From Anaerolineales bacterium (GTDB lineage Bacteria > Chloroflexota > Anaerolineae > Anaerolineales > UBA11579), in NCBI GenBank assembly GCA_016935415.1, contig JAFGRA010000423.1:1-40729 (forward strand): DNA of 40,729 nucleotides, in the 5' to 3' direction. The notes beneath the pieces are model-generated. The model searched no databases. It saw only the letters and a list, made by a program, of their open reading frames with translations, and was not told where the DNA came from. Both the position numbers and the translations under genes were made by a program. Every line of letters starts with the position of its first letter. Within the stretch, counting starts at the first letter, position 1. Positions 10,297 to 25,831 of the stretch are shown here, one piece after another.

Positions 10297-10749
10297 CTAT
10301 GCTTCGGCGGCGATCAAATCGGCGATGGCCTCGATCACAACCGGCACTTTTTGGGCGATGGCCGGGGACAACGCTTCGGTAATGTCGAAGAGGTTTGAGG
10401 TCACTGAAACCACGGTTGCCGGAGGATGTTCTCCGTACAAACCCTGTACAGCAGAAAGTAGTGTGTCAGGGTCAAAGAAATGTGAGACGGGCGAATCTAG
10501 CCGGGAGTTGGGTTTGATTGGTGTAACGTCAACCTTGCCGATTTCGTCACCCAGGCGGGCGTCAATGAAAATAACCAGGTCAACCTGGCCGATGGGTTCG
10601 ACCAGATCCATGGTTAGCTGCTGTACGTGTTGGACAACGACATTCGGATTGGAATCGTAAATTTGGGCCAGCACCTGGGTTGCGTGCCAGCCCAAACCAT
10701 CATCTCCACGAAGGGGGTTACCAATACCAATAATTAGTACGTTTTTCAT
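10297..10749 (-). CDS. [NiFe]-hydrogenase maturation endopeptidase
   Basis: A 150-residue protease of the HyaD/HybD/HoxW family that removes the C-terminal peptide of the hydrogenase large subunit once nickel is in place. The N-terminal 'IGIGNPLRGDDGLG' carries the family's first nickel-sensing acidic residue. 'VIFIDAR' and 'GEHPPATV' supply the acidic and histidine positions used by characterised members. The start overlaps the hoxH stop by one base (TAATG), tying its expression to its substrate. It is the last gene of the hydrogenase operon. It equals hoxW in function, but the symbol is left empty because naming differs among groups. Confidence 0.93.
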   Translation of the reverse strand: MKNVLIIGIGNPLRGDDGLGWHATQVLAQIYDSNPNVVVQHVQQLTMDLVEPIGQVDLVIFIDARLGDEIGKVDVTPIKPNSRLDSPVSHFFDPDTLLSAVQGLYGEHPPATVVSVTSNLFDITEALSPAIAQKVPVVIEAIADLIAAEA

Positions 10750-12173
10750 TAATCGCGACGAACTTCTTCCAGTAATTCCTCGTCTTGATTATAAACCTTA
10801 ATTTCGATGGGCATCTGGCCCAGCGCGTGGGTCGAGCAGGACAGGCACGGGTCATGAGCACGGATGGCAGCCTCTACGCGGTTGAGCAGACCTTCGCGTA
10901 CGTCACCATTCTTGATGTAGTGCTTGGCAACCATGCCGACCGAATGATTCATGGACCAATTGTTATGGCCGGTGGCGACGATCAGGTTGACGCGCTCCAG
11001 TTTGCCGTCTGGATTTGCCCAGTAATGGTGGAACAGTGTGCCACGTGGTGCTTCAATCACACCGACGCCTGTACCTGTGTACTCCTGATGCGTGTTCAGG
11101 ATATCTGCGCTGAGAATGTCGGGGTCTTCAAGCAATTCTTTAGCGCGTTCCATAGAGAAGACCGTTTCGATCAGACGGGCATAGTGGAAGTAAAGCGTGT
11201 TCTCAAGCGGCTTGCCGGGGTTGATCGCTTTATAGGCTGTTAGCTCTTCGTTCGCCAACGGGGTGTCGATCTCTTTGGTTACGTTCAGGCGGCCAAGTGG
11301 GCCAACGCGGTAAACGCCACCGGGGTACCCCATTTTTTTGTAATACGGGAACTTGAGATAGCTCCAGTCTTCCACGTGTTCGGCAATGTAATCGAGGTAA
11401 TCTTCACCGGGGAACTGTTCCAACTTCTCACCGTCTTTATCGATCAGCTTGAATTCACCGTCGTACAGTTCGAGGTTGCCATCTTCGGTGACCAGCCCAC
11501 CGTATCCTGATTGGAATACGGCAAATTCTTCGATCACATTCATGTTTTCTGCGGCCCAATTCTTGATAATATCGAGGCCGACTTGGACGGTAGCCAGATT
11601 TTCTTCATATCCAGCCAGCATCTCGTCGCGTTCAGTAACGGAGAGTTGTTTATTTACGCCGCCGGGTACGGCGAAGTTGGGGTGAATGCGGCGGCCGCCG
11701 ACGAGGCGGATGATCTCTTGGCCGTATTTGCGCAGCGCGACGGCTTTCAAGGCCAGTTCGGGGTTGGCCTGGATCAGGCCGACCACATTGCGGGTTGCCG
11801 GGTCGGAGTCGAAACCAAGTAACAGGTCAGGCCCGGCCAATTCAAAGAAATGCATGCCGTGGCTCTGGATCATCTGGCCCATGTGCATCAGTTCGCGTAG
11901 CAGGTTAGCAGGGCGCGGCGGCGGAGCGCCTACGACCTGGTCACAAGCCTTGACCGAAGCGAGGTGGTGGCTGACCGGGCAGATACCGCAGATACGCGGC
12001 GTAATCGAGGGCATTTCGTAATACATGCGCCCTTCGCAGAATTTTTCGAAGCCGCGGAATTCGTTGACATGGAAATAAGACTGGGCGACATTGCCGTCAT
12101 CATCTAGGTGGATGGTGACTTTTGCGTGTCCTTCAATGCGGGTGATCGGTTCAATTGTAATTTTTTCCATCAT
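10749..12173 (-). CDS. hoxH: NAD-linked [NiFe]-hydrogenase large (catalytic) subunit HoxH
   Basis: The 474-residue catalytic subunit carries the Ni-Fe(CN)2CO site that splits or makes H2. The N-terminal motif RICGIC (C62, C65) with 'PVSHHLASVKA' and the C-terminal DPCLSCSTH (C443, C446, H449) supply the four cysteine ligands. These motifs are those of the group 3 (cytoplasmic, cofactor-linked) enzymes. A 25-residue tail after H449 is the expected pro-peptide, removed by the protease encoded next. Two tandem ATGs (12173, 12170) are possible starts. GAGG is upstream, and its spacing is slightly better for the second. Clustering with HoxE/F/U homologues supports group 3d over the F420 types. Accessory hyp genes are not in the window. 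Confidence 0.95.
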   Translation of the reverse strand: MMEKITIEPITRIEGHAKVTIHLDDDGNVAQSYFHVNEFRGFEKFCEGRMYYEMPSITPRICGICPVSHHLASVKACDQVVGAPPPRPANLLRELMHMGQMIQSHGMHFFELAGPDLLLGFDSDPATRNVVGLIQANPELALKAVALRKYGQEIIRLVGGRRIHPNFAVPGGVNKQLSVTERDEMLAGYEENLATVQVGLDIIKNWAAENMNVIEEFAVFQSGYGGLVTEDGNLELYDGEFKLIDKDGEKLEQFPGEDYLDYIAEHVEDWSYLKFPYYKKMGYPGGVYRVGPLGRLNVTKEIDTPLANEELTAYKAINPGKPLENTLYFHYARLIETVFSMERAKELLEDPDILSADILNTHQEYTGTGVGVIEAPRGTLFHHYWANPDGKLERVNLIVATGHNNWSMNHSVGMVAKHYIKNGDVREGLLNRVEAAIRAHDPCLSCSTHALGQMPIEIKVYNQDEELLEEVRRD

Positions 12174-12188
12174 TAAGCCTCACTTATA

Positions 12189-12731
12189 CTAATGCCAGTG
12201 CAGTTTGTCGCCCTTGATTTCAGGGACGCGCCCGTTTGCTAACTCGGCTAAGGTATAGAAGATAGCATCGGCATCTGGCGGGCAGCCGGGCAAATGGATA
12301 TCTACGTCTACAACTTCATGAACGGCACGCACTTTGGTCGGGCGGCCAAGTTCCGGACTGGAAGGTATTTTACCTTCGGAGTCAGTGCTCTCGGTTTCGA
12401 TGTACGCCCGTTCGAGGGCGACGACTTCTCCAGCCATATTGCGGTGAGCAACGACGCCGCCGAAAACGGCACAATCACCCATGGAGATCAGGATCTGGCA
12501 GCGCTCGCGCATGCGTTTGCATACTTCTTCATGGGTGGTGAGATTGACTGCGCCGGTCAAAATACCGACGGTAACGCCGTCTTCATCAGGGTGTTTCAAA
12601 TCGGTAATGGGAGTGGCGCGGATGTCGACTGCTTCAACGATCTGGACAATGCGTTCATCTATATCCAGCAAAGACATGTGACAACCAGCGCAAGCAGCCA
12701 GCCATTCTGAGGATACTGTTGGTTTTGCCAT
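12189..12731 (-). CDS. hoxY: NAD-linked [NiFe]-hydrogenase small subunit HoxY
   Basis: A 180-residue small subunit with no Tat signal, which fits a cytoplasmic enzyme. It holds the single proximal [4Fe-4S] cluster that passes electrons from the Ni-Fe site to the diaphorase part. The four ligands are visible as C14-x2-C17 ('CAGCHMSLLDID'), C87 ('SMGDCAVFGG') and C150 ('LPGCPPD'). This short one-cluster form is typical of HoxY and unlike the three-cluster membrane-type small subunits. It lies 15 bases from both hoxH and the HoxU-like gene. Confidence 0.94.
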   Translation of the reverse strand: MAKPTVSSEWLAACAGCHMSLLDIDERIVQIVEAVDIRATPITDLKHPDEDGVTVGILTGAVNLTTHEEVCKRMRERCQILISMGDCAVFGGVVAHRNMAGEVVALERAYIETESTDSEGKIPSSPELGRPTKVRAVHEVVDVDIHLPGCPPDADAIFYTLAELANGRVPEIKGDKLHWH

Positions 12732-12746
12732 ATGGGTACTCCTACT

Positions 12747-14666
12747 CTATGCAACGATCTTGGCGAATTCGCCGACTTTCATCTGCCATTCGTCTTCGAC
12801 TTCGACGCCGATCTCTTTGGCAATCGCTTTCAATACAGCCGCGTTTTGCCGGACGCTTTCGGGAGCTTCCAGTGATTTGTAAGCTTGCTGGACGCGTCCT
12901 TCCAGGTTGACGTAGTGGCCCTCCTGCTCGAGCCAGGTAACGACCGGCAGGATCACATCTGCTTTTTCAGAAAGCGGCGAGTCATAGCTGGACATCACGA
13001 TTACATAAGGTGCGTCGGCTGCTTTTTCGAGCAGCCGCTCGCTGACGTGATCGTCACCCAGGTCGAGGAATACAGCTTCCCGGCCTTCGGTTTGGAAGAC
13101 TATATCCAGACCCAGCGCCTGGGCAACTACACTGTTCGATTGTCCTTTGGGGGTGAAGACCTTGGCATCTACTTTAGAAGCAAGTTCGGCGATCAGCTTG
13201 ACGATTTCAGCGGCTTGCTTGCGGGCGATACCCTTGCCAAAGGCGATTACGGGCGATCCAGCTTCGGCCAGCAAGGTGGCTACTGCAGCGATACGTTCGC
13301 TGGCGATACCGGTATCAGCAAGCAGTTCATCGACCTTAGCCCGGTCCCCGTCTAGAGCAGCCAAGATGGCACTCAATAGGGCGCTGTCTGAACCGGCAGG
13401 AGCCTTCAAGTGATCCATGGCTTGGGTAGCCATTTTGTTTTCGGCGGGGTCGATCAATGCGATTTGCATACCGTCCAACAGGTGGCGGCGGATCTGGAAC
13501 CCGGCAACCTGGTGGCTGGTGAACAAGTCGATGCCAACTGCTAACACAAAGTCAGCTGCGTCGAGATCTGCTACCAGCGCTTTGCGGTCGGCAACTGCGC
13601 TTTCATCTGTAACGGTCATGCCTTCTTCGATGCTGGTAACCATGCTGCCTCCCAACTGATCCTTGAAGAGGCTGGTGAAGGTCGCCAGGGTTTCGGCGGG
13701 TAGTTTGGTGGAGACCAGTGCGGCGACCCCGCTGCCGTTCTTGCCGATTAGAGGCTTGAGGTGCTCGGCGGCTGTCTGGATAGCTTCTTCCCAGGTAACG
13801 GGAACTAGGCTACCGTTCTTGCGCACCATGGGCATCTCAATGCGCTTGCGGGTGTCAAATGGAGCTTTGAAGCGGCCGTACTCGCACAGCAGGCCGTGGT
13901 TCACAGGGCCGTCCCAGCGGCTTTCGACGCGGAATAACTGGTTGCCGTGGGTGAGAACGTTGATGCCACAGCCAACACTGCACTGTACACAGATGCTCTC
14001 AGTAACATCAGCGTCCGATTTCTTGCCTTTGTAAGCGCTGTTGCGATCGACCAGGGCGCCAGTGGGGCAGACTTGCAGACAGGTGCCGCAGCTAATGCAG
14101 GAGCTTTCGCCAAGGGGGAGGTTGTTATCCGCTCGCAGCATGGCGTCGTGGCCGCGTTCCTGTACGTGTAGCGTGTGATTGCCAACCAAATCCCAGCAGG
14201 CTCGCACGCAACGGCGGCAAAGAATGCAGCGGTTGTGATCGACGTAGAACCAGGTAGGGGAGGCGTCGACCGGGAAAGGCGACCAATTTGGCTCCATTGG
14301 CCAATGGGTCATTTCTTCATGGTAGGCGGCGTTTTGTAGTTCGCAATCGCCGTCCGTAACCGTGCAGTACATGCAGAAGTGGTTGCGTTCGCTGAAGAGC
14401 AAGGAAAGCACAAATTCGCGGGCAGCTTTGACTTTCTCGTTTTGGGTGTCAACAACCATACCTTCTGCTACTTTGGTCGTACAAGAGGTTTGCAGGGTGG
14501 GGATGCCTTCGATCTCTACCATACACATGCGGCAGCCACCAAATGGAGTGAGGTGTTCGAATTCGCACAGGCGCGGGATGATGATGCCGGCCTGCTCGGC
14601 TGCTCGTAAGATGGTGGTACCTTCTTCAGCCGTTACAGCTTGATTGTCAATTGTCAGTTTTACCAT
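12747..14666 (-). CDS. hoxU: HoxU-type iron-sulfur subunit with a NuoG-like C-terminal extension
   Basis: This 639-residue protein is much longer than classical HoxU of roughly 240 residues. The first 210 residues are HoxU/NuoG-like. They hold a [2Fe-2S] domain (C34, C45, C48, C62), a His-containing cluster region (H96, C98, C101, C108) and two [4Fe-4S] sites (C147/150/153/157 and C190/193/196/200). Next comes a further [4Fe-4S] motif (C226, C229, C233, C261), as in the N-terminus of NuoG and molybdopterin oxidoreductases. The last part (about residues 280-639) resembles a shortened bis-MGD domain. I see no obvious molybdenum-binding Cys or Ser, so this part is probably structural, as in NuoG. 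It should wire HoxYH to the NAD site of HoxF. Confidence 0.88.
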   Translation of the reverse strand: MVKLTIDNQAVTAEEGTTILRAAEQAGIIIPRLCEFEHLTPFGGCRMCMVEIEGIPTLQTSCTTKVAEGMVVDTQNEKVKAAREFVLSLLFSERNHFCMYCTVTDGDCELQNAAYHEEMTHWPMEPNWSPFPVDASPTWFYVDHNRCILCRRCVRACWDLVGNHTLHVQERGHDAMLRADNNLPLGESSCISCGTCLQVCPTGALVDRNSAYKGKKSDADVTESICVQCSVGCGINVLTHGNQLFRVESRWDGPVNHGLLCEYGRFKAPFDTRKRIEMPMVRKNGSLVPVTWEEAIQTAAEHLKPLIGKNGSGVAALVSTKLPAETLATFTSLFKDQLGGSMVTSIEEGMTVTDESAVADRKALVADLDAADFVLAVGIDLFTSHQVAGFQIRRHLLDGMQIALIDPAENKMATQAMDHLKAPAGSDSALLSAILAALDGDRAKVDELLADTGIASERIAAVATLLAEAGSPVIAFGKGIARKQAAEIVKLIAELASKVDAKVFTPKGQSNSVVAQALGLDIVFQTEGREAVFLDLGDDHVSERLLEKAADAPYVIVMSSYDSPLSEKADVILPVVTWLEQEGHYVNLEGRVQQAYKSLEAPESVRQNAAVLKAIAKEIGVEVEDEWQMKVGEFAKIVA

Positions 14667-14699
14667 AGTGCACCTTTTCTCAAATGCCTTCGAAGCAGT

Positions 14700-16007
14700 C
14701 TATTGCAATGCTTCAAATTTGCAAACACCGGCGGGACAAGAGTGGTCTTCGATGTGGGCGATGATCTCGGCTTTGAAATATTCGAGAATGCCGGATATTG
14801 GAGCGCAGGCCGTATTTCCCAGGCCACAGTTCGAGAGCGCTTTCATGTTCGCGGCAAAATATTCCAGGAGGGAGATGTCTTTGATGGTCCCTTTGCCCTG
14901 GGAGATTTTGACAAATGTTTCGTAACCGCGCTGCGTCCCAATGCGGCAGGGCGCGCATTTACCGCAACTTTCATTCCGGAAGAAGTTGAGCAATACGATG
15001 GACAGGTCTACAACACAGGTATGCTCGTCGCAGATTAGCATCGCACCTGAGCCGAGGGAAACGCCATATTCTTTCATCGCATCAAAATCAAGCGGCACAT
15101 CCAGCAAGCTGGGGGGAATTACCGTGCCGCTGGAGCCACCGGTTTGAGCAAGTTTGAACGTTGCGCCATCTTTCATGCCCCCGGCGAAATCGTCGATGAT
15201 CTCACGCGTGGTGATGCCCAGGGGAACTTCGATATAGCCGACTTTGTTTACATTACCCAAGATGGTATAGATTTTGGTGCCGGCGCTGTTGGCTGTGCCA
15301 ATCCCTTTGTACCACTCTGCTCCGTTGAGAATGATTGGGGGAACATTGGCGAAAGTCTCGACGTTATTCACCAGGCTGGGCTTGCCGCGCAGACCGTAAG
15401 TGGTGGGGAAGGGGGGGCGTGTACGTGGCTCGCCGCGTTTGCCTTCGATGGCTTCGATCAGAGCGGTCTCTTCACCACAAATGTAGGCGCCAGCACCAGC
15501 GTGAATGTGGATGTTGAAATCGAAACCCGAGTCGAGAATATTTTTACCCAGGTAGCCAGCTTCATTGGCTTGCTCAACAGCTTTGGTCATGCGTTGCTGG
15601 GAGAGGTGATATTCACCGCGGATATAAATGTAGCCTTCTTGAGCGCCAACGGCAAAACCGGCAATCGTCATGGCTTCGATGATGCTATGTGGATCGTTTT
15701 CCATGATGATGCGGTCTTTGAAGGTGCCGGGTTCGCTCTCGTCGGCATTGCAGATCACATATTTGATGGGGCTTTCAGCAGAAGACACGAAACCCCATTT
15801 CAAGCCAGCGGGGAAGCCTGCACCACCACGGCCGCGCAAACTGGAAGCCTTTACTTCTTCTCTAATTTCTGCAGGTGTCATACTGGTGAGGGCTTTTTCG
15901 AGGGCTCTATAGCCATCGTGTTGGACAAATTCTTCGATGCTTTCGGGATCGATAAGGCCGACTCTGCGCAGAAGAACGCGCTGTTCTTTGATTTTTATTG
16001 ATTCCAT
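14700..16007 (-). CDS. hoxF: NAD-binding diaphorase subunit HoxF/NuoF
   Basis: The 435-residue subunit binds NAD(H), FMN and one [4Fe-4S] cluster and is the site of NAD+ reduction or NADH oxidation. The NAD/FMN glycine loop is RGRGGAGFPAGLKW (58-71). The FMN block is 'GAGAYICGEETALIEAIEG' and the cluster motif is 'ESCGKCAPCRIGT' plus the cysteine of 'SNCGLG'. It lacks the thioredoxin-like N-terminal extension of classical HoxF; that function is in the separate HoxE-like gene. The tail 'CPAGVCKFEALQ' looks like the first turn of a C-terminal ferredoxin domain of HndC-type proteins, but the domain itself is missing. AGGAG lies 7 bases before the start. Confidence 0.94.
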   Translation of the reverse strand: MESIKIKEQRVLLRRVGLIDPESIEEFVQHDGYRALEKALTSMTPAEIREEVKASSLRGRGGAGFPAGLKWGFVSSAESPIKYVICNADESEPGTFKDRIIMENDPHSIIEAMTIAGFAVGAQEGYIYIRGEYHLSQQRMTKAVEQANEAGYLGKNILDSGFDFNIHIHAGAGAYICGEETALIEAIEGKRGEPRTRPPFPTTYGLRGKPSLVNNVETFANVPPIILNGAEWYKGIGTANSAGTKIYTILGNVNKVGYIEVPLGITTREIIDDFAGGMKDGATFKLAQTGGSSGTVIPPSLLDVPLDFDAMKEYGVSLGSGAMLICDEHTCVVDLSIVLLNFFRNESCGKCAPCRIGTQRGYETFVKISQGKGTIKDISLLEYFAANMKALSNCGLGNTACAPISGILEYFKAEIIAHIEDHSCPAGVCKFEALQ

Positions 16008-16016
16008 TATGCGCTC

Positions 16017-16499
16017 CTACTTGTATTTGGTCAGGATGCCGGGCAGTTCGTCGAGGCTGAAATTGCCATGAATATTGTCATTGATCACGATCACCGGCCC
16101 GTCGCTGCAAACTCCGATGCAGCTGGTGGCAACAAGTGTCCACATACCATCGGCGCTGGTCTCGCCAGGTTGGATACCTAATTCGGCTACCAGTTTTTCA
16201 TACATCGCTTTGCCGCCCATTACGTGGCAGGGTGCACTCTCGCAGAAGAGTACGAGATTCTTGCCACGAGGCTGGATGCGAAGCATTTTGTAAAAACTAG
16301 CGACAGAATATACCTCGCCAATCGGGAGCCGCATTGCTTTGCTCACATCAACCATTGCACTGGTGGGGACATGCCCCAATTTATCATTGATCTCGCTTAG
16401 CACTGGGATCAACTCTTCGCGCGAGGTTCCGTGAATTTGGAGCGTCTCCTGTACGACAGAAGAGACTTGGGCGTCTTCTGTTCGATCCATAGTTACCAT
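16017..16499 (-). CDS. hoxE: [2Fe-2S] thioredoxin-like diaphorase subunit HoxE/NuoE
   Basis: A 160-residue NuoE-like subunit. The cluster ligands are C86-x4-C91 ('FCESAPCHVMGG') and C127-x3-C131 ('SCIGVCSDGP'), the standard pattern for this thioredoxin-fold [2Fe-2S] protein. The N-terminal helices include 'LGHVPTSAMVDVSKAMRLP'. With HoxF and HoxU it forms the NADH-dehydrogenase-like half of the enzyme. AGGAGG lies 6 bases before ATG 16499. It is the first gene of the operon and is preceded by the Rex-like operator and promoter described separately. Confidence 0.94.
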   Translation of the reverse strand: MVTMDRTEDAQVSSVVQETLQIHGTSREELIPVLSEINDKLGHVPTSAMVDVSKAMRLPIGEVYSVASFYKMLRIQPRGKNLVLFCESAPCHVMGGKAMYEKLVAELGIQPGETSADGMWTLVATSCIGVCSDGPVIVINDNIHGNFSLDELPGILTKYK

Positions 16500-16651: not shown

Positions 16652-16804
16652 CTGACAAATGTCCTGTTAAACGGGGGTTATTTGCTTCAAGTTGAATTCG
16701 CTTTGATTAATGGGTGAAGATTAATCGATGCCCCTTGGGGTGATGTGTAAGCACGAAATATGCGCATAGCCATAACAATATACACTTTCTATGCTTTATA
16801 TGAT
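16652..16804. other. Spacer between the divergent hox and aro promoters
   Basis: No coding sequence is supported here. The only pattern I see is a direct repeat of GATTAAT at 16705-16711 and 16719-16725 (period 14 bases), and a small CCCCTTGGGG hairpin at 16731-16740. Either could be an operator, but nothing identifies a regulator. Confidence 0.4.
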
Positions 16805-16833
16805 TTGACAATAATACAAAAAGGTTGTATACT
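16805..16833 (+). promoter_or_regulatory. Strong sigma-70-type promoter of the aromatic amino acid operon
   Basis: TTGACA (16805-16810, perfect -35), a 17-base spacer and TATACT (16828-16833, 5/6 -10). The predicted start is near 16840, about 165 bases before aroH. The transcript first passes the leader ORF and attenuator. Confidence 0.85.
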
Positions 16834-16844
16834 CTGCGAAACTT

Positions 16845-16931
16845 ATGAAAATGCACTCTACTTCTAAATTTTTTGCGTTCTATTTTTATTACGGCACCAA
16901 AACTCGGCTGCCGTTGGCGATGTTTAAGTAG
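16845..16931 (+). CDS. Phe/Tyr-rich leader peptide controlling the aro operon (pheL-like)
   Basis: A 28-codon ORF, MKMHSTSKFFAFYFYYG and then a short basic tail, ending at TAG 16929-16931. Codons 9-16 (16869-16892) read Phe-Phe-Ala-Phe-Tyr-Phe-Tyr-Tyr, so seven of eight are aromatic; one more Phe is near the end. The ORF lies between a near-consensus promoter and an intrinsic terminator in front of the aro genes, and resembles E. coli pheL in size and composition. Ribosome stalling at these codons when charged tRNA-Phe or tRNA-Tyr is scarce would expose the antiterminator pairing. The first ATG is only about 5 bases after the predicted transcription start and has no Shine-Dalgarno, so translation may be nearly leaderless. 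A second ATG (codon 3) is an alternative. The peptide itself probably has no other role. Confidence 0.85.
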   Translation: MKMHSTSKFFAFYFYYGTKTRLPLAMFK

Positions 16932-16985
16932 AGCAGAAATCCCCTTACTTAGAAAAAAACACGAGACCAACGGTCTCGTGTTTTT
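16891..16985 (+). promoter_or_regulatory. Transcription attenuator of the aro operon (alternative RNA helices)
   Basis: Helix 1:2 pairs ACGGCA (16891-16896) with TGCCGT (16909-16914). Region 2 can instead use CCGTTGG (16911-16917) to pair with CCAACGG (16967-16973), which is the loop and inner stem of the terminator. The two states exclude each other. Region 1 begins at the last Tyr codon of the leader ORF, so a stalled ribosome covers region 1 and leaves region 2 free. A ribosome at the stop codon covers region 2 and permits termination. Confidence 0.75.
16955..16985 (+). terminator. Intrinsic terminator of the aro attenuator
   Basis: A perfect 14-bp stem: the arm ending CACGAGACC (16955-16968) pairs with the arm starting GGTCTCGTG (16972-16985) around the loop AAC, and the 3' arm ends in TTTTT. 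It sits upstream of aroH and downstream of the aro promoter, so it can only act as a leader terminator on this strand. The A-run before it would also allow it to work on the minus strand. Confidence 0.93.
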
Positions 16986-17005
16986 CGCTTAACAGGAGTT
17001 TTGTT

Positions 17006-17374
17006 ATGGCTACCAGAGGAATCCGCGGTGCGATCAATGTCTATAAGGATACCCCCGCAGAAATTAGCACTGCAATCGATACACTGTTTGCAACGCTCAT
17101 CGAGAAAAATGCTGGATTGACTCAAGAAGATGTGGGCAGCATCCTGATTACGGTGACACACGATATCCGTTCAGCGTTCCCCGCCAAGGCGATCCGGGAA
17201 ATGGGGTGGCAGACGGTTCCTATGATGTGCGCTCAAGAGATTCCGGTTGAAGGTAGTTTGCCCTTGTGCATCCGAGTGTTAGTGCATTGGAATACAGATC
17301 TCCCCCAAAATAAAATTACGCACATTTACCTGCGCGAAGCAACAAAGCTGCGCCCAGAACTAGCTGAAATATAA
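17006..17374 (+). CDS. aroH: Chorismate mutase, AroH class
   Basis: Converts chorismate to prephenate in the cytoplasm, the first step toward Tyr and Phe. The 122-residue protein closely follows Bacillus subtilis AroH. It starts with RGIRGA (active-site R7), has '[23 protein letters not shown]' (the Glu that sits in the active site) and '[12 protein letters not shown]' with the second active-site Arg, and ends '[13 protein letters not shown]'. AGGAG lies 7 bases before ATG 17006. It is the first structural gene after the attenuator. Its placement ahead of the shikimate genes makes the operon one for Tyr/Phe supply, not only for chorismate. Confidence 0.96.
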
Positions 17375-17411: not shown

Positions 17412-18461
17412 ATGATGATTGTTATGCGTTCAAATGCTACGGAGACGGAAATCGAGACGATAATTTCGAGAATCGAATCTTTTCATCTTAATGCTCACAT
17501 TTCTAAGGGGATCGAGCGGACGGTGATTGGTGTCGTTGGCGATGGGCGTCCGGTACAGTCTAGCCAGTTCATCCATATGCCTGGCGTTGATCGAATTGTG
17601 CCAATCTCACGGCCATACAAGCTGGCCTCACGCGAGTTTCAACCGGAAGATTCCTCCTTTCCGTTGGATGGCGTGACAATTGGCGGCAATGAGATCGTGA
17701 TTATGGCTGGGCCGTGCTCAGTAGAGAGCCGGGAGCAGCTTATGGAAACGGCGCATGCCGTGAAAGAAGCAGGCGCGCACATTTTGCGTGGTGGGGCGTA
17801 CAAACCACGCACTTCACCCTACTCGTTCCAGGGACTGGGCTTGAAGGGACTGGAATTGCTGGCGGAAGCTCGGGAGGAGACCGGTCTGGCAGTGGTTACG
17901 GAAGTGACTTCTCCTGAATTGGTACCGATCGTTTGCGATTACGCCGATATGCTGCAAATTGGGGCGCGCAATATGCAGAATTATGTGTTGCTGCACGAGG
18001 TCGGCAAAAGCATGAAACCGGTTTTGTTGAAGCGCAGTTTCAGCGCTAAGGTTGAAGACCTGCTGATGGCGGCCGAATACATCCTCTCGCATGGCAACCG
18101 CAAGGTTGTGTTGTGCGAGCGCGGCATCCGCACCTTCGAAACTGCAACCCGCAACACAACGGATATCAATGCTATCCCGGTTTTAAAGTCCCTGACACAC
18201 CTACCGGTAGTGCTCGACCCCAGCCACAGTACCGGACATTGGGAATATGTTACTGCAGTGGCACGCGCGGGGGTAGCGGTTGGCGCAGATGGCCTGGTTG
18301 TTGAAGTTCACAATCATCCCGGTGAAGCTTTATCTGATGGCGGGCAATCGCTGAAACCAATACGCTTTGCTGAATTGGTTACCCAGGCATCAGCCGTGGC
18401 TGAGGCAGTTGGTAGAAAAGTAGCTCCTTCGAAAGCGCTCCAGGAAGTTGCATGGAATTAG
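17412..18461 (+). CDS. aroF: 3-deoxy-7-phosphoheptulonate (DAHP) synthase, type I-beta with N-terminal ferredoxin-like domain
   Basis: Condenses phosphoenolpyruvate and erythrose 4-phosphate, the first committed step of the shikimate pathway. ATG 17412 is chosen because AAGGAG lies 7 bases upstream; a GTG at 17406 is too close to it. Residues 1-70 form a small alpha/beta domain like the ferredoxin-like regulatory domain of Thermotoga-type enzymes. The barrel begins at '[12 protein letters not shown]'. '[16 protein letters not shown]', '[10 protein letters not shown]' and '[12 protein letters not shown]' are conserved catalytic and PEP-binding blocks. The N-terminal domain suggests enzyme feedback control on top of the transcriptional attenuator. 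It overlaps tyrA by 10 bases. Confidence 0.95.
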
Positions 18462-19315
18462 CTGACGCTACGATCGCGATCATGGGCCTGGGGTTGATGG
18501 GCGGTTCCCTGGCGCTTGCCCTAAAGGGCAAATGCTGCTCGCTGCGCGGAATGGATGTGGACGCCGAGACCCTGGCTTATGCTACCGATCGTGGGATTGT
18601 CGACATCGCTTCCAGTGATCTGGAAAGCATCCTTGCCGGTGTGGACGTACTCATCCTGGCGATGCCCGTAGGCCAGATCGTGCGTTTTATTCAGGATCTT
18701 CCTAAGGTATATTCGGGGAAGATCATGCTAATGGATTTAGGCTCGACCAAGGCTGATATCGTGAACGCGATGTCGAAACTCCCGAAACGCTTCGATGTAT
18801 TGGGTGGGCATCCGATGTGTGGCAAAGAAAAACTGGGTATCCAAAACGCCGATCCTACCATGTTTTCCAACGCTCCCTTTGCTTTTACCAAATTGGAAAA
18901 TACGTCACCCAAAGCGGTAGATTTTGCCAACCAACTCGTTGCGGCGATTGGCGCTAATCCACTGTGGATTTCTGGAGAAATCCACGATGCCTGGACGGCT
19001 GCAACCAGCCATTTCCCCTACCTGATATCGACACTGTTGGCCAGGGTGACTCCGGCGGCAGCACGGCCGTTGATCGGAAGCGGATATCGCAGCGCAACCC
19101 GTTTAGCGGGTACGCCAGCCTCTTTGATGCTGGATGTATGCCTTTCCAATCACGAGAACATCCTGGCTGCTTTCGATCACTTTGTAGCAGAAATGCAGCA
19201 ACTGCGCGAATTGCTGGCAGCGCAAGATGCAGATGCGCTGCGGGTATGGATGGACAAAGCAGCCACTCATCAAAACCACCTTTTAGGACAGAGCACACAT
19301 GAAAGTCATCACTGA
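18452..19315 (+). CDS. tyrA: Prephenate (or arogenate) dehydrogenase
   Basis: Oxidatively decarboxylates prephenate to 4-hydroxyphenylpyruvate, or arogenate to tyrosine. It has 287 residues. The Rossmann loop is [10 protein letters not shown] (12-21) and the active-site histidine lies in '[14 protein letters not shown]' (H120). '[10 protein letters not shown]' and '[13 protein letters not shown]' are family blocks in the helical dimerisation domain. There is no C-terminal ACT domain and no fused chorismate mutase, so chorismate mutase is supplied by aroH. The start lies inside the aroF end and the stop inside aroA, so translation is coupled. Cofactor (NAD or NADP) and substrate preference cannot be read reliably. 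Confidence 0.94.
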
Positions 19316-20618
19316 ATCCGGTTATCCCCTGCGCGGGACAGTCTCGTTACCCGGCGATAAATCCATCTCTCACCGGGCTGCTTTATTTGGCGCGTTGGCA
19401 ACCGGACACAGTCACATTGAAAATTTCCTGGTGGCCGGGGTGACCGAAAAGATGTTGGATGCGTTGACCGCACTTGGGGTGAGTTACACGCTGAACGGTA
19501 CAACCCTGGACATCAATGGCAAGGGGTTTGCAGGAATTGAACCCGCTGAAAAGGTACTGCATTGCGGTAATTCAGCTACGACCATGCGCCTGTTGATTGG
19601 CGCGTTGGCAGGTATTGGCCTTCCGGCAAAGTTAGATGGTTCAGAAGGGTTGCGTAGCCGGCCAATGGGGCGTGTGGTCAATCCACTCAGGGAAATGGGC
19701 GCACAGATCGAAACAACTGAGGCCGGAACTGCTCCTCTCCAGATACTTGGGATGGATGGCAAACATTTGCAGGGAAGGAATTTTGCGTTGCCGGTTGCCA
19801 GTGCGCAGGTGAAAACGGCGCTCATGTTAGCTGCGCTGCAAGGTAACAGCCCAACTACGATCCTGGAACCAGGCCCATCGCGCGATCATTCTGAACGTAT
19901 GTTAGCGAGTATGGGGGCTTCTATAGAAACAGTTGCTCAGCAGGGAAAGCCGTGCATTACAGTTGAGCCGCTACAGAAGCATCTTACTCCGCTTGAGATA
20001 ACCGTTCCCGGCGATTTCTCATCGGCAGCCTTCTTGATCGTGGCTGCATTGGTTACGCCTGGATCAGAGATCGTATTGCAAGGGGTTGGCCTGAATCCAA
20101 CGCGGACTGGTTTACTGGATGTGCTCCATACAATGGGGGCACAGATCGAAATCTTGAACGCCAGAGAACAGCACAATGAACCGGTTGGTGACATTGTTGT
20201 GCGGCATAGTCGACTGCATGGCATCGAAGTCAGTGGTTCTGTGGTGGTGCGTATGATCGACGAATTCCCGGTCTTTGCGGTTGCCGCAGCCTACGCGGAA
20301 GGACAGACGGTTGTCAAGGACGCGGTGGAATTGCGACACAAAGAGTCGAATCGTATTTCGATGCTGTGCGCGCAGCTAACTGAGGTGGGCATCTCTGTGC
20401 GAGAACAACCAGACGGCTTCGTGATTGACGGCGGCGCGCCGGTGACAGGCGGAATCGCCGACCCACATTCGGATCACCGCCTGGCGATGTCTTTGCTGGT
20501 AGCGGGATTGGATGCACAGGGGCCGGTTAGTGTGCAGCATGCCGAGATCATCAACGAATCATTTCCACAGTTTCTAGATAGCCTGACGCATTTGGGGGCC
20601 AGGTTCGATGTCGTCTAA
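19299..20618 (+). CDS. aroA: 3-phosphoshikimate 1-carboxyvinyltransferase (EPSP synthase)
   Basis: Transfers enolpyruvate from PEP to shikimate 3-phosphate. It has 439 residues, the usual size. The substrate-binding Lys-Ser is in 'LPGDKSISHRAALFGAL' (K21, S22, R26). 'HCGNSATTMRLLIGAL' is the conserved glycine-rich block, 'VRMIDEFPVFAVAAAYAEG' carries the catalytic Asp and 'DPHSDHRLAMSLLVAGL' the C-terminal signature. The gene overlaps tyrA by 17 bases and aroE by 11. Confidence 0.97.
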   Translation: MKVITESGYPLRGTVSLPGDKSISHRAALFGALATGHSHIENFLVAGVTEKMLDALTALGVSYTLNGTTLDINGKGFAGIEPAEKVLHCGNSATTMRLLIGALAGIGLPAKLDGSEGLRSRPMGRVVNPLREMGAQIETTEAGTAPLQILGMDGKHLQGRNFALPVASAQVKTALMLAALQGNSPTTILEPGPSRDHSERMLASMGASIETVAQQGKPCITVEPLQKHLTPLEITVPGDFSSAAFLIVAALVTPGSEIVLQGVGLNPTRTGLLDVLHTMGAQIEILNAREQHNEPVGDIVVRHSRLHGIEVSGSVVVRMIDEFPVFAVAAAYAEGQTVVKDAVELRHKESNRISMLCAQLTEVGISVREQPDGFVIDGGAPVTGGIADPHSDHRLAMSLLVAGLDAQGPVSVQHAEIINESFPQFLDSLTHLGARFDVV

Positions 20619-21492
20619 AAGAGATTATCAGTTAGGTTTGATCGGTTGGAAACTCGGCCACAGCCTTTCTCCTGCTATGCATAATGCTGCACTCGAAGCG
20701 TTGGCGTTGACCGGAGATTACCGCCTGTATTCGATTGACCCTGCTGATTCTGGTAGCTTAGTTGATCTGTTGGACAAAGTTCGCCGCGGTGAGATCGACG
20801 GCTTGAATGTTACCATCCCTCACAAGCAAAACGTAATGCCGTTGCTGGATGCGCTTACACCTACAGCAGAACAGATCGGAGCAGTGAATACAATTATTCG
20901 AGATAAGGACAAGTTGCTTGGAGATAACACTGATGCAGCCGGTTTCCTCTACGACCTGGAAAACTTTTTTGCTGCTGAGAATATTGAACTCCTCACAAAA
21001 GAGAAAGAAGCGCTGATCCTCGGAGCGGGTGGTGCGGCTCGGGCAGTGGTCTATGCTTTGGCGCAGGCTGGCTGGAACGTTGCGATTGCTGCCCGGCGCG
21101 TCGTGCAGGCTGCAGAATTGGTGGAAAGCCTGGGTATTGGGAACGCACATGTGATTGATTTGACGGAACAGGAAATCGCGGCGTTATCCCCACATCTGAT
21201 CGTGAATGCCACACCGGTAGGTATGTTCCCACAAGGGGATGCTTCCCCTTGGCCGGAAGGCCTGGTATTTCCAGCCGGAGCGGCAATTTACGATCTGGTC
21301 TATAATCCCCCCATTACGCAACTGGTTGCCGAAGCGCACGCTGTAAACATACCCGCCATCACCGGCTTGGGCATGCTGGTCGAGCAGGGGGCGGCTGCTT
21401 TTCAGACCTGGATCGGACAAGAATCACCACGCACAGTCATGCGAGTAGCCTGTAAAACTGCCCTGGCCGCACAAACCTACCCCAAAGGATAG
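20608..21492 (+). CDS. aroE: Shikimate dehydrogenase
   Basis: NADPH-dependent reduction of 3-dehydroshikimate to shikimate. It has 294 residues. The substrate-binding 'GHSLSPAMHNAAL' is near the N-terminus, the catalytic lysine is in 'NVTIPHKQNV', and the catalytic aspartate is in 'GDNTDAAGF'. The nucleotide loop is 'LGAGGAARAV', and 'VNATPVGMFP' follows. The start ATG lies within the last codons of aroA. Confidence 0.96.
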   Translation: MSSKRDYQLGLIGWKLGHSLSPAMHNAALEALALTGDYRLYSIDPADSGSLVDLLDKVRRGEIDGLNVTIPHKQNVMPLLDALTPTAEQIGAVNTIIRDKDKLLGDNTDAAGFLYDLENFFAAENIELLTKEKEALILGAGGAARAVVYALAQAGWNVAIAARRVVQAAELVESLGIGNAHVIDLTEQEIAALSPHLIVNATPVGMFPQGDASPWPEGLVFPAGAAIYDLVYNPPITQLVAEAHAVNIPAITGLGMLVEQGAAAFQTWIGQESPRTVMRVACKTALAAQTYPKG

Positions 21493-21499
21493 AGAGCTT

Positions 21500-22672
21500 A
21501 TGTCATTACGTTACCTGACTGCCGGAGAATCCCACGGGCCTGCCCTGGTTGCCATTCTGGAAGGGATGCCGGCCGGATTATTACTTCCAAGTGAGGTTAT
21601 TGACCACGAACTGGCGCGTCGCCAGCAGGGGTATGGCTCTGGGGCGCGCATGAAAATCGAAAGTGACAGCGCCGAAATTTTGAGTGGGGTCATGGCGGGG
21701 GTGACGACCGGCGCGCCGTTGGCCTTCATGATCCAGAACCGCGATCACGTCAAATGGCAGGATAAAGCGATTGCCCCCTTCACCGTGCCGCGTCCCGGCC
21801 ACGCAGACCTTACCGCGGCGATTAAGTATGGCTACACTGATCTGCGTCCTTCGCTAGAACGCGCCTCTGCTCGCGAGACCGCGGCACGTGTGGCGGTGGG
21901 CGCGGTGTGTAAGCATTTTTTGCAGCAATTTAGGATTACAGTCGGAGGGTACGTGGCTTCGCTTGGTGAAGTGGAGGCTGAAATTGCAGACATTGCTTTT
22001 GATGGAAGAATTGCGACGGCGGAAACCAACGAGGTGCGCTGTCCGGCACAAAGCTCAGTAGACGCATTTACAGAAAAGATCAGGGCGACGATGCAAGCCC
22101 GCGATACCTTGGGCGGCATTATTGAGATCCTCGTACAGGGGTTGCCGGTGGGCCTGGGATCGCACGTGCAGTGGGACCGGCGCATCGAGACCCGTTTGAG
22201 CGCGGCGATCATGAGTGTGCAGGCTATGAAAGGGGTGGAAATTGGCGATGGTTTCGCCAATACGCGCTTGCCTGGTACCCAAGCGCAAGACCAGATTTAC
22301 CTCGAAGGCGAAGAGATCGTCCGCAAGACGCACCGCGCTGGGGGCGTGGAAGGCGGTATCACCAACGGTGGCCCCCTGATCCTGCGGGCCGCGATGAAAC
22401 CGATTGCGACCACACTGACCCCGCAGCATTCCGTTGACTTGGCGACCGGCCAGGAGACGGACACGCAGTACGAACGCTCAGATTTCTGCCCGGTGCCGCG
22501 CGCAGTGCCGATCCTGGAAGCAGTTGTAGCTTACGTACTGGCCGATGCGTTGCTCGAGAAATTGGGCGGCGATCAACTGGCGGTAATGCAGGAACGTTTT
22601 GAGAGGTTGCCCAAGGCAAGGCTCAGCGATATCCAGCTTGCGAATGAAGCACAAACTTGGTGGCGAACATGA
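21500..22672 (+). CDS. aroC: Chorismate synthase
   Basis: FMN-dependent trans-elimination of phosphate from EPSP to give chorismate, the branch point for Tyr, Phe and Trp. It has 390 residues. All three family signatures are visible: 'GESHGPALVAILEGMPAG' at the N-terminus, 'ERASARETAARVAVGAV' in the middle and 'GGVEGGITNGGPLILRAA' further on. It starts 8 bases after aroE, and its TGA overlaps the ATG of the AroKB gene. Confidence 0.97.
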   Translation: MSLRYLTAGESHGPALVAILEGMPAGLLLPSEVIDHELARRQQGYGSGARMKIESDSAEILSGVMAGVTTGAPLAFMIQNRDHVKWQDKAIAPFTVPRPGHADLTAAIKYGYTDLRPSLERASARETAARVAVGAVCKHFLQQFRITVGGYVASLGEVEAEIADIAFDGRIATAETNEVRCPAQSSVDAFTEKIRATMQARDTLGGIIEILVQGLPVGLGSHVQWDRRIETRLSAAIMSVQAMKGVEIGDGFANTRLPGTQAQDQIYLEGEEIVRKTHRAGGVEGGITNGGPLILRAAMKPIATTLTPQHSVDLATGQETDTQYERSDFCPVPRAVPILEAVVAYVLADALLEKLGGDQLAVMQERFERLPKARLSDIQLANEAQTWWRT

Positions 22673-24225
22673 AACCTTTTATCTTTTTGTATGGCCCTTC
22701 TGGTTCGGGTAAGAGCACAATTGCACCAATCCTGGCGCGTAGCCTGGATATGTCGACCGTTGACCTCGATCAATTGATCGTCCAGGAAACGGGACAGGAG
22801 ATCCCACAAATTTTCGAGATAGCAGGCGAGCCTGCGTTTCGGCAGTACGAGCGACATGCCTTACAGCAGGTGCTCGCCGGGCCGTCGCAGGTGGTTTCAT
22901 TGGGCGGCGGCGCGCTGCAAGCCGCCGGGAATCGTGACCTGGTCGAAGCGGCGGGCGTTGTGATTTGCTTGAGCGCTTCGGTGGATGTGCTGATTGCTCG
23001 CTTACAAGCCGATGTCGAGGAACGTCCATTACTGGCTGCCGACCTGGTCGAGAATCTGGAAGCAATGCTGCAGAAACGGAAGGAACATTACGCTTCTTTT
23101 TCCTATCAATTGGACACGTCTGAGCTTACTCTAGAACAGGCTGCCCACGAAATCCAAATCATGACCGGCTTGTTTCACATTAGTGGGATGGGGACAGGCT
23201 ATCCTGTGCAGATTGGTGCTGGCAGTTTAGCAGAAGTAGACTTCTTGCAGATACATACAGCATATGCTATCGTCAGCGATGAAAACGTCAGCCAGTACCA
23301 CCTCGATCCTTTATTGGCAGCTATGAATAAAACAGATGTAAAGGCTGCTCCCATTGTGATTCCGTCAGGCGAACAGCAAAAGAGTATTGATACGGCCGTG
23401 AAGCTTTGGGAGCAATTCTTACAGGCCGGACTTGACCGTAAGAGTGCAGTGTTGGCCCTGGGCGGTGGTGTGGTGGGTGATCTGACCGGTTTTGCGGCGG
23501 CGGCTTACATGCGCGGTATTGCCTGGGTATCCGCGCCGACTTCATTGCTGGCAATGGTTGATTCCAGCCTGGGGGGTAAGACAGGCGTCAACCTGGCCTT
23601 TGGCAAGAACTTAGTAGGCGCTTTTTATCCGCCGGAGATGGTCGTCATTGACCCGGCATTGTTGGAGACGCTGCCACAAGCGGAACTCATTAATGGCATG
23701 GCTGAGGTGGTCAAGCATGGTGTGATCGCCGATCCGGTCTTGTTCGAAATGTGTGCTCGACCGCTTGAAACGCAGGATTGGGAAGCCCTCGTACGCCGGG
23801 CGGCGGCTGTGAAGATCCGGGTGGTCAACCAAGACCCATATGAGCAAGGTTTGCGGGAAACGCTGAATTTCGGCCATACAGTCGGGCATGCTATAGAGGC
23901 GCTGACCCATTACGGAGTCAAACATGGAGAAGCAGTGGCGATTGGCATGGTGATTGAAACCCGCTTGGCGGAAAACCTGGGGACTGCGGAGTCGGGACTG
24001 ACTGAGCAAATCATTGCTGTGCTTGAAGCGGTTGGATTGCCAACCGAGCTTCCCGCATCGATCGAAATCGACGATTTGCTGGTTGCTATGCAGTCCGATA
24101 AGAAGAAACGTGCCGGAAGAGTGCGTTTCTCTTTGCCGGTTAAGATTGGGGAGGCGGTTTGGGGTGTTGAAGTCGAAGACTTGAAAGCCGCGCTTGCTAA
24201 AGTCTATGGAGGAATCTATGCCTAG
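22669..24225 (+). CDS. aroKB: Fused shikimate kinase - 3-dehydroquinate synthase
   Basis: A 518-residue two-domain enzyme covering shikimate pathway steps 5 and 2. Residues 1 to about 165 are shikimate kinase, with P-loop GPSGSGKST (9-17), the shikimate-binding Asp in 'STVDLDQLI' and '[10 protein letters not shown]'. From about residue 175 the sequence is an NAD- and metal-dependent 3-dehydroquinate synthase, with '[20 protein letters not shown]', '[12 protein letters not shown]', '[11 protein letters not shown]', '[12 protein letters not shown]' and 'HGEAVAIGM'. ATG 22669 (ATGA overlap with aroC) is the start; an upstream TTG at 22657 is not needed. Similar fusions are known, for example in Thermotoga. 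The reading frame is continuous and neither domain looks damaged. Confidence 0.95.
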
Positions 24226-24655
24226 TATTCTGGTGCTGCATGGCCCTAATCTAAATCTGCTAGGACAGCGCGAACCTGATGTATATGGTGCAATCACGCT
24301 GGATGATATCAACCAGCAGCTTGTGGAAGCCGCGGCGGAAATGGGAATTGAAATCAGTGCTTTCCAGTCCAATCAGGAGGGAGCATTGATTGATGCCTTG
24401 CACCAGGCCGAACAAAACGCGGACGGTGTGATCTTCAACCCGGCTGGGTACACGCATACCTCGGTTGCGCTGCGGGATGCCGTTGCTGCTATCGAGGTGC
24501 CGGTGGTCGAAGTGCATATTTCTAATGTGTACGCCCGCGAGGAGTTCCGTCACAAGTCGCTGCTCTCCCCGGTATGCATGGGTAAGATCACTGGTTTTGG
24601 CTGGCGCTCTTACCTGCTCGCTTTATATGCTTTCAAAGAAATCGTGTTTGAGTAG
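24218..24655 (+). CDS. aroQ: Type II 3-dehydroquinate dehydratase
   Basis: Dehydrates 3-dehydroquinate to 3-dehydroshikimate. It has 145 residues, typical for the small dodecameric type II enzyme. '[19 protein letters not shown]' holds the substrate-binding Asn, catalytic Arg and Tyr. '[16 protein letters not shown]' and '[19 protein letters not shown]' hold the catalytic His and binding residues. ATG 24218 is preceded by GGAGG and overlaps the aroKB stop, so an upstream in-frame ATG at 24194 is not the start. Confidence 0.96.
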
Positions 24656-24664
24656 GAATAAACA

Positions 24665-25831
24665 ATGCAATCTACATCGATCCGTATGCAGCAATTAGGT
24701 ACTTATTTCTTTGCCGAATTAGACGCCAGGATCAAATCCCTGCAAGCCAATGACGCAGATATTATCCGGTTGGATGTGGGTTCCCCGGACCTGATGCCCC
24801 CACCTTTAGCTATTGAAACCTTGCGTGAACGAGCCGGAGACGCCAACGCACATCGTTATCAACCACACAACGGCACAGTTTCTCTGCGGGAAGCCTGGGC
24901 AAATTATTATCAGAATTGCTTCCAGTTGGAGTTTGATCCGGAAATGCAGATTTTGCCCTTGATGGGTTCGAAGGAAGGTATCTTCAACCTGATCCAGGCT
25001 TTTGTCGATCCGGGTGATGTTGTACTCATCCCTGATCCAGGCTATCCGGCATATACGCGTGGGACGCGATTTGCAGGTGGTGAACCTTGCTTCCTGCCAC
25101 TGTTGCCCGAAAATGATTTCCGATTTGACTTAAATGGCATCCCCGCTGAAGTCGCGCGGCGAGCAAAATTGCTGTGGCTCAACTATCCTAATAACCCCAC
25201 TGGGGGAACAGCCTCGCTCGATTTCTTCGAGGAGGTGATTGCCTTTGCGCACGAATACGAATTCCTGGTCTGTCATGACGCAGCTTATGCCCAGGTTTCC
25301 TATGATGGGGTGTTCCCACCCAGCATCTTGCAGGTCCCTGGAGCGGAGGAGGTCGCGGTTGAATTCAATTCGCTCTCCAAGACCTTCCATATGGCCGGAT
25401 GGCGGACGGGCGCTCTGGTGGGTAACCAGGACGCGATCCAAACCCTCTCGCGTTTGAAGACGAATGTCGACAGTGGACATTTCCGTCCGATCTTGGAAGC
25501 TGCCGCGGCCTGTTTAGAAGAGCTCGATAAAGAGTGGATCGCTGAGCGAAACGCGATCTTGCAACGTAGACGCGATGTGGTTGTTGACGGACTTGAGAAT
25601 TTGGGCATACCGGTGCAATCTCCCCAGGGTGCGTTGTATATCTGGTGTCCGGTGCCACCAGGACAACGATCCGGAGCGTTTGTTCTGCGGCTTTTGGAGG
25701 AGGCGCATGTTAGCTTTGCACCCGGCACGGTGTTTGGGGCACAAGGCGAAGGCTATATGCGGATTTCGCTCACTGCTTCTGAGGAACAGCTTCATGAAGC
25801 TATTGATCGGATGGGCAAAATCTACATTTGA
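24665..25831 (+). CDS. Pyridoxal-phosphate aminotransferase class I/II, probably for aromatic amino acids
   Basis: A 388-residue fold-type I aminotransferase. The PLP lysine is K239 in 'NSLSKTFHMAGWRTG', the pyridine-binding Asp is D205 ('HDAAYAQVSYDG'), and 'LNYPNNPTGGTAS' is the family's Asn-Pro block. It resembles LL-diaminopimelate and aspartate aminotransferases. As the last gene of an operon that ends at prephenate/4-hydroxyphenylpyruvate, it most likely transaminates an aromatic keto acid or prephenate, using glutamate or aspartate. A lysine-pathway role cannot be excluded by sequence alone. AGGA lies 7 bases before the start. Confidence 0.85.
   Translation: MQSTSIRMQQLGTYFFAELDARIKSLQANDADIIRLDVGSPDLMPPPLAIETLRERAGDANAHRYQPHNGTVSLREAWANYYQNCFQLEFDPEMQILPLMGSKEGIFNLIQAFVDPGDVVLIPDPGYPAYTRGTRFAGGEPCFLPLLPENDFRFDLNGIPAEVARRAKLLWLNYPNNPTGGTASLDFFEEVIAFAHEYEFLVCHDAAYAQVSYDGVFPPSILQVPGAEEVAVEFNSLSKTFHMAGWRTGALVGNQDAIQTLSRLKTNVDSGHFRPILEAAAACLEELDKEWIAERNAILQRRRDVVVDGLENLGIPVQSPQGALYIWCPVPPGQRSGAFVLRLLEEAHVSFAPGTVFGAQGEGYMRISLTASEEQLHEAIDRMGKIYI

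Follow-up and report, generated by a model that had tools for sequence, protein, structure and literature searches.

A candidate Phe/Tyr-sensing leader-peptide attenuator in front of the shikimate–tyrosine operon of an Anaerolineales bacterium

Leader region and downstream operon

The window, that is, the whole 40,729-nt stretch of DNA analysed here, carries an operon that covers all steps of the shikimate pathway together with chorismate mutase and prephenate dehydrogenase (Table 1). The original prediction placed a leader directly upstream of aroH-aroF-tyrA and the remaining shikimate genes, and the same gene order is recovered by matches to protein family models. The operon had also been described as complete for the aromatic amino acids, which holds as far as Tyr but not for Phe, given that pheA is not part of it and sits elsewhere in the genome behind a leader of its own. 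Shikimate kinase models match the N-terminal part of the aroK-aroB fusion below cut-off, and for the PLP aminotransferase encoded by the last gene, a role as aromatic aminotransferase is plausible. A divergent operon on the minus strand (10297–16499), which by eye reads like a bidirectional NiFe hydrogenase with diaphorase-type and hydrogenase subunits and a maturation protease, shares its intergenic region with the leader promoter.

Table 1. Coordinates of the leader elements and operon genes in the window and of other control elements in the same genome
Feature	Position	Strand	Remarks
Sigma-70-type promoter, TTGACA-17-TATACT	16805–16833	+	11/12 consensus matches
Leader peptide ORF	16845–16931	+	28 codons, MKMHSTSKFFAFYFYYGTKTRLPLAMFK-stop
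Outer helix H0, 5' arm, CUCUACUU	16856–16863	+	pairs with 16926–16933
Regulatory codons 9–16, F-F-A-F-Y-F-Y-Y	16869–16892	+	within leader ORF
Region 1, ACGGCA, protector arm	16891–16896	+	starts in last Tyr codon; pairs with 16909–16914
Region 2, UGCCGUUGG	16909–16917	+	UGCCGU (16909–16914) pairs with region 1; CCGUUGG (16911–16917) pairs with region 3
Outer helix H0, 3' arm, AAGUAGAG	16926–16933	+	overlaps UAG stop codon
Intrinsic terminator (3:4)	16955–16985	+	stem 16955–16968/16972–16985, loop 16969–16971
Region 3, CCAACGG	16967–16973	+	top of terminator stem plus loop; antiterminator with 16911–16917
Shine-Dalgarno of aroH, AGGAG	16994–16998	+	read from sequence
aroH, monofunctional chorismate mutase	17006–17374	+	TIGR01796, 141 bits, over cut-off
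aroF, DAHP synthase (B. subtilis type)	17415–18461	+	TIGR01361/NF006421 over cut-off; start codon approximate
tyrA-like prephenate dehydrogenase	18452–19315	+	best 176 bits, below subfamily cut-offs
aroA, EPSP synthase	19299–20618	+	TIGR01356 over cut-off
aroE, shikimate dehydrogenase	20608–21492	+	TIGR00507 over cut-off
aroC, chorismate synthase	21500–22672	+	TIGR00033 over cut-off
aroK-aroB fusion, shikimate kinase/3-dehydroquinate synthase, one frame	22657–24225	+	TIGR01357 over cut-off (aroB part)
aroQ, type II 3-dehydroquinate dehydratase	24203–24655	+	TIGR01088 over cut-off
PLP aminotransferase, LL-DAP aminotransferase-like	24665–25831	+	best models below cut-off
pheA leader	G000:C249:14463–14599, in L148	−	start codon ~28 nt after -10 box, not leaderless
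His6 leader with terminator, MQNQPTTLHLHHHHHHYDNRPSHRAGLF-stop	L370, G000:C32, before hisG at 58671		own genome
T-box before trpE	L300:3004–3320	−	own genome

The leader ORF, with its FFAFYFYY run, is present as translated in the original prediction, as are the near-consensus promoter and the strong terminator. The latter forms a perfect 14-bp stem with a 3-base loop, AAAAACACGAGACC-AAC-GGTCTCGTGTTTTT, which ends in a T-run and has a folding energy of -17.6 kcal/mol; a simple terminator scan missed it because the T-run sits inside the stem. When the 506-nt intergenic region was shuffled 2000 times at the dinucleotide level, a same-strand short ORF as dense in F/Y codons (at least 7 in 8 codons) arose only twice, and none of the other short ORFs on either strand of the window reaches even 6 F/Y in 8 codons.

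Conservation of the leader and leaders for other amino acids

We collected 110 aroH loci from 30 of the 61 searched relatives and from 80 named records, most of them titled Anaerolineales, Anaerolineae, Chloroflexi or Chloroflexota, with a few genomes counted twice. Retention of the short Phe/Tyr ORF in related genomes had been proposed as a check on the prediction, with its loss or random codons in the cluster counting against it. The ORF lies directly upstream of aroH at 103 of the 110 loci, and 72% of the 504 cluster codons in the dereplicated leaders specify Phe or Tyr (plus Trp), while the codons outside the cluster vary. The seven exceptions are L012, L020, L023, L038, L082, L031 and L060; at L038 and L082, the upstream sequence reads like the end of pheA, and the records of L031 and L060 hold too little upstream sequence for a leader. 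In a phylum-wide sample, the leader occurs both in families belonging to the same class and in four families of other classes (f36, f46, f72 and f75), and was not found in some families, for instance f41, f54 and f67.

Several loci depart from the common arrangement. L012 has no F/Y leader; a T-box (positions 165–400, 119.8 bits) precedes a trpS-like gene there, and aroH follows immediately after this gene, an apparent swap of the control mechanism. At L267, an F/Y leader immediately precedes aroF (DAHP synthase) instead of aroH, and the aroH loci of two other members of that family have no leader. In L047, L051, L058 and L106, the cluster is shortened (..YFYFTAPN..) and the following frame is shifted, with the leaders still ending at a stop codon and the RNA helices kept.

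Dereplication below 86% identity left 56 leaders, and 53 of these are preceded by a promoter with at most three mismatches. The distance from the end of the -10 box to the leader AUG is 6–12 nt in 44 of the 56, most commonly 10, and an SD-like motif is found before 2 of the 56 leader ORFs versus 55 of the 56 aroH genes. In the window, the 5' UTR, with the start placed from the promoter position alone, measures ~5 nt and contains no Shine-Dalgarno sequence. The short gap and the missing SD motif suggest that most of these leader ORFs, that of the window included, are probably translated from leaderless or nearly leaderless mRNA. In the other classes of the phylum, the gap is mostly ~35–45 nt.

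A covariance model built from the aroH leaders was used to search the genome of the window and those of its relatives. In the former, it retrieved a Phe leader, MNNKIFIVNCKFDFIDGIEQPHTVSGVY-stop, directly before pheA (prephenate dehydratase), with four Phe and with Tyr solely as the last residue; in a relative, it retrieved a Thr-rich leader, MSISPFTTTNTMTTTARTRQPSLPVG-stop, before aspartokinase-asd. Thr leaders precede aspartokinase at 6 of 17 loci (L272, L274, L276, L278, L279 and L281), with Thr runs of up to TTTTTTT and, in some, a terminator recognizable by eye, and His leaders precede hisG at 9 of 15 loci, in the same genome as well as in relatives. In each of these cases, the leader codons match the amino acid made by the downstream genes, and this agreement provides strong independent support for an attenuation mechanism. 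By contrast, no Trp leaders were found before trpE in the relatives, nor, with the exception of one Ile/Val/Leu-rich ORF (L354), any branched-chain leaders before ilvB. For the control of aromatic amino acid synthesis, the genome of the window combines leader-peptide attenuators with a T-box. Two further matches of the covariance model were rejected, namely, L152, from outside the order, which is a plain terminator, and L266, from inside the order, which has neither a leader nor a biosynthetic gene.

Competing helices, codon constraint and alternative explanations

In addition to the terminator, the leader region of the window contains a protector hairpin and an antiterminator, both absent from the original description. 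Judged from these predicted pairings, the leader RNA holds three mutually exclusive helices, 1:2, 2:3 and 3:4, which is the anatomy of the trp/phe attenuators. The antiterminator CCGUUGG/CCAACGG pairs perfectly in the window; at about -11 kcal/mol, it is weaker than the terminator, so that read-through has to rely on kinetics, as it does in attenuators already described.

The promoter, protector, antiterminator, terminator and outer helix are all kept in the relatives with fixed spacing. When RNAalifold was applied to the leader alignment, the terminator alone was recovered, because the alternative helices are mutually exclusive and the outer helix aligns poorly. We therefore compared pairing within each locus with pairing to partners from other loci, using reversed partners as controls. 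Own partners were favoured for the outer helix H0 (z = -9.8; reversed control, -1.5), the protector 1:2 (-6.1; -0.9), the antiterminator 2:3 (-5.3; +1.0) and the terminator 3:4 (-18; -5.8). Across the 56 leaders, both sides have changed in 11 of the 14 terminator pairs; the protector is paired in 79% of alignment cells and the antiterminator in 87.5%, compared to 14–48% when the latter is slid by 1–3 columns. Column-wise covariation is slight for the antiterminator, as its sequence hardly varies, and poor for H0 on the leader alignment owing to gaps. In some lineages, both arms of the antiterminator have changed in concert: GUUGCUC pairs with GAGCAAC in L009, and GUUGCUUCGCG pairs with CGUGGAGCAAC, G-U pairs included, in L150.

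The coding side of the leader is constrained in a different manner. The nine-codon cluster of the 56 leaders (504 codons) contains 181 Phe, 182 Tyr and 21 Trp codons, and both Phe and Tyr are present in every leader. Substitutions within the cluster are mostly synonymous or exchanges among F, Y and W: in the 45 distinct leaders of equal length, the fraction of comparisons with a difference at codon positions 1, 2 and 3 is 0.11, 0.44 and 0.36, respectively, and F/Y/W exchanges make up 69% of the nonsynonymous ones. Over the cluster stretch of the 56 leaders, the leader frame contains 363 F/Y codons versus 96 and 73 in the other two frames. This pattern indicates that what is kept is 'Phe or Tyr', rather than a fixed peptide or merely U-rich RNA. 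Downstream of the cluster, 87 leaders read the segment CGGYUGCCGUUGGYGGCGCUUAAG as ..AVGGA-stop, and 10, including that of the window, read it as ..RLPLAALK..; given these two frames, the segment is conserved as RNA and not as peptide.

These observations bear on the ways in which the locus could be read other than as an attenuator. The hairpin might be a constitutive terminator brake, with the short ORF a mere translated patch at the 5' end and no control by aminoacyl-tRNA, and it is in keeping with this reading that the literature searched contains no Chloroflexota leader of such kind with in vivo data. However, a constitutive brake, which we consider improbable, leaves unexplained the retention of F/Y codons along with their free exchange, an antiterminator tuned to each locus, and the Thr, His and Phe leaders that match their own downstream pathways. 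Still less probable is nascent-peptide arrest of the TnaC/SecM type, whereby a free metabolite, instead of uncharged tRNA, would be the signal for the aromatic peptide to stall the ribosome: although the peptides are aromatic, of fairly fixed length and frequently carry Tyr-Gly after the cluster, arrest peptides need particular residues, whereas here F and Y interchange freely in no conserved order and two different frames are used for the residues following the cluster. An open and conserved reading frame would also be expected if a functional small hydrophobic protein were encoded and the hairpin were incidental, but the N-terminus varies freely and the C-terminus is read in different frames among relatives over a retained RNA whose helices are supported, which makes this explanation extremely improbable. 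Control of the operon by a T-box or riboswitch, brought to mind by the T-boxes before trpE in the same genome and before the trpS-like gene upstream of aroH in L012, is likewise extremely improbable, considering that the window has no Rfam match at the gathering score; even at E ≤ 10, a search of 16740–17010 returned no leader family and no T-box (RF00230), with chance sRNA-type matches alone.

Proposed switch and comparison with known attenuators

For the switch predictions, we folded transcripts of the 56 leaders that end before the second terminator arm and modelled the ribosome by masking. Free RNA is predicted to favour the protector 1:2, which nonetheless reaches 4 or more pairs in just 40 of the 56 leaders. 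With the ribosome on the last F/Y codon, the antiterminator 2:3 forms in 55 of the 56, versus 102 of 560 controls in which the downstream RNA was shuffled. With the ribosome at the stop codon, neither 1:2 nor 2:3 remains; such losses of helices under the ribosome are a consequence of the masking and do not count as independent evidence. The spacing from the last F/Y codon to the start of region 2 is 22 nt in 65 of 98 leaders, and that from its CCG to the stop codon is 14 nt in 79 of 98, compared to 18 nt in the window.

The original prediction had the ribosome stalling at codons 9–16. In the window, region 2 is predicted to become entirely free when the ribosome pauses on codon 14 or 16, but 1:2 to stay partly formed when it pauses on codon 9. 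The stall-sensitive codons would be mainly the last ones (~13–16), because a ribosome on codons 9–10 would not cover the protector arm. The positions covered are based on the usual ribosome footprint.

The evidence of the retained F/Y cluster, along with an antiterminator and a protector that are complementary within their own locus, supports the ribosome-mediated Phe/Tyr attenuator envisaged in the original prediction. We consider it very likely that the leader controls aroH-aroF-tyrA-aroAECKBQ through ribosome-mediated transcription attenuation of the trpL/pheL type, with charged tRNA-Phe and tRNA-Tyr as the signals that it reads. The ribosome would probably start on the near-5'-terminal AUG, so that its coupling to RNA polymerase would be immediate. 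With Phe and Tyr plentiful, it would reach the stop codon, cover ~16911–16942 and hide region 2, and the terminator would form. With Phe or Tyr in short supply, it would pause at the last F/Y codons (~13–16) and cover region 1, allowing the free region 2 to pair with CCAACGG while the second terminator arm has yet to be transcribed, and RNA polymerase to read through. If the leader is not translated, 1:2 and the outer helix would hold region 2, making termination the default.

If so, the leader would extend trp/phe-type attenuation to Chloroflexota, provide the common shikimate pathway with a pooled Phe and Tyr sensor, and serve as a naturally occurring case in which to test the part of leaderless initiation in transcription–translation coupling. 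The searchable leader model, with its Thr and His relatives, may also aid the annotation of regulation in uncultured bacteria known from metagenomes only. A broader scenario, which we put forward tentatively, is that attenuation by Phe/Tyr, Phe, His and Thr leaders might be old and general in Chloroflexota, predating the split of several classes and not derived from Proteobacteria, and that the form found in Anaerolineales might be leaderless, with the 70S ribosome starting on a near-terminal AUG, coupled to the polymerase from the first nucleotides, and with a single sensor that pools two amino acids.

In E. coli pheL-pheA, pheM-pheST and trpL, a cluster of codons for the end product lies in a short ORF between promoter and intrinsic terminator, and the protector, antiterminator and terminator are mutually exclusive, with the stop codon placed such that a terminating ribosome covers region 2. 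The window shares with these systems the codon cluster, its location ahead of a biosynthetic operon with a promoter on one side and an intrinsic terminator on the other, the exclusive helices and the placement of the stop codon. Unlike them, it would read Phe and Tyr about equally and control the whole operon from shikimate to Tyr, and has a probable leaderless start and an extra helix tying the beginning of the leader to its stop codon. It further differs from the leader families of Proteobacteria in lacking a match to an Rfam leader model.

The leader ORFs LeuL, TrpL1 and IlvL of Streptomyces lividans are transcribed without a 5' UTR and followed by competing hairpins (PMC8079986), as is probably the case here, so that the Chloroflexota leaders are not unique in this respect; the window differs from them in phylum and in the amino acids concerned. 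A survey of Actinobacteria reported no Phe, Tyr, His or Thr elements (PMC1262725). His-leader attenuators have been described in the Bacillus cereus group, Peptostreptococcaceae and Erysipelotrichales (PMC9413887) and, like the present leader, lie outside Proteobacteria and were recognized by their leader codons and competing hairpins, but they belong to Firmicutes and concern His only. An RNA motif survey from 2013, with Chloroflexi among the groups covered, suggested that such attenuators originated in gamma-proteobacteria (PMC3766115). For Chloroflexota, the literature searched reports riboswitches and T-boxes and describes no leader-peptide attenuators, though an earlier prediction for an operon of this phylum may exist. 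Overall, whereas the mechanism and the anatomy are already known from other bacteria, the dual sensing of Phe and Tyr for a common pathway, the probable leaderless start and the deep conservation within Chloroflexota would be new.
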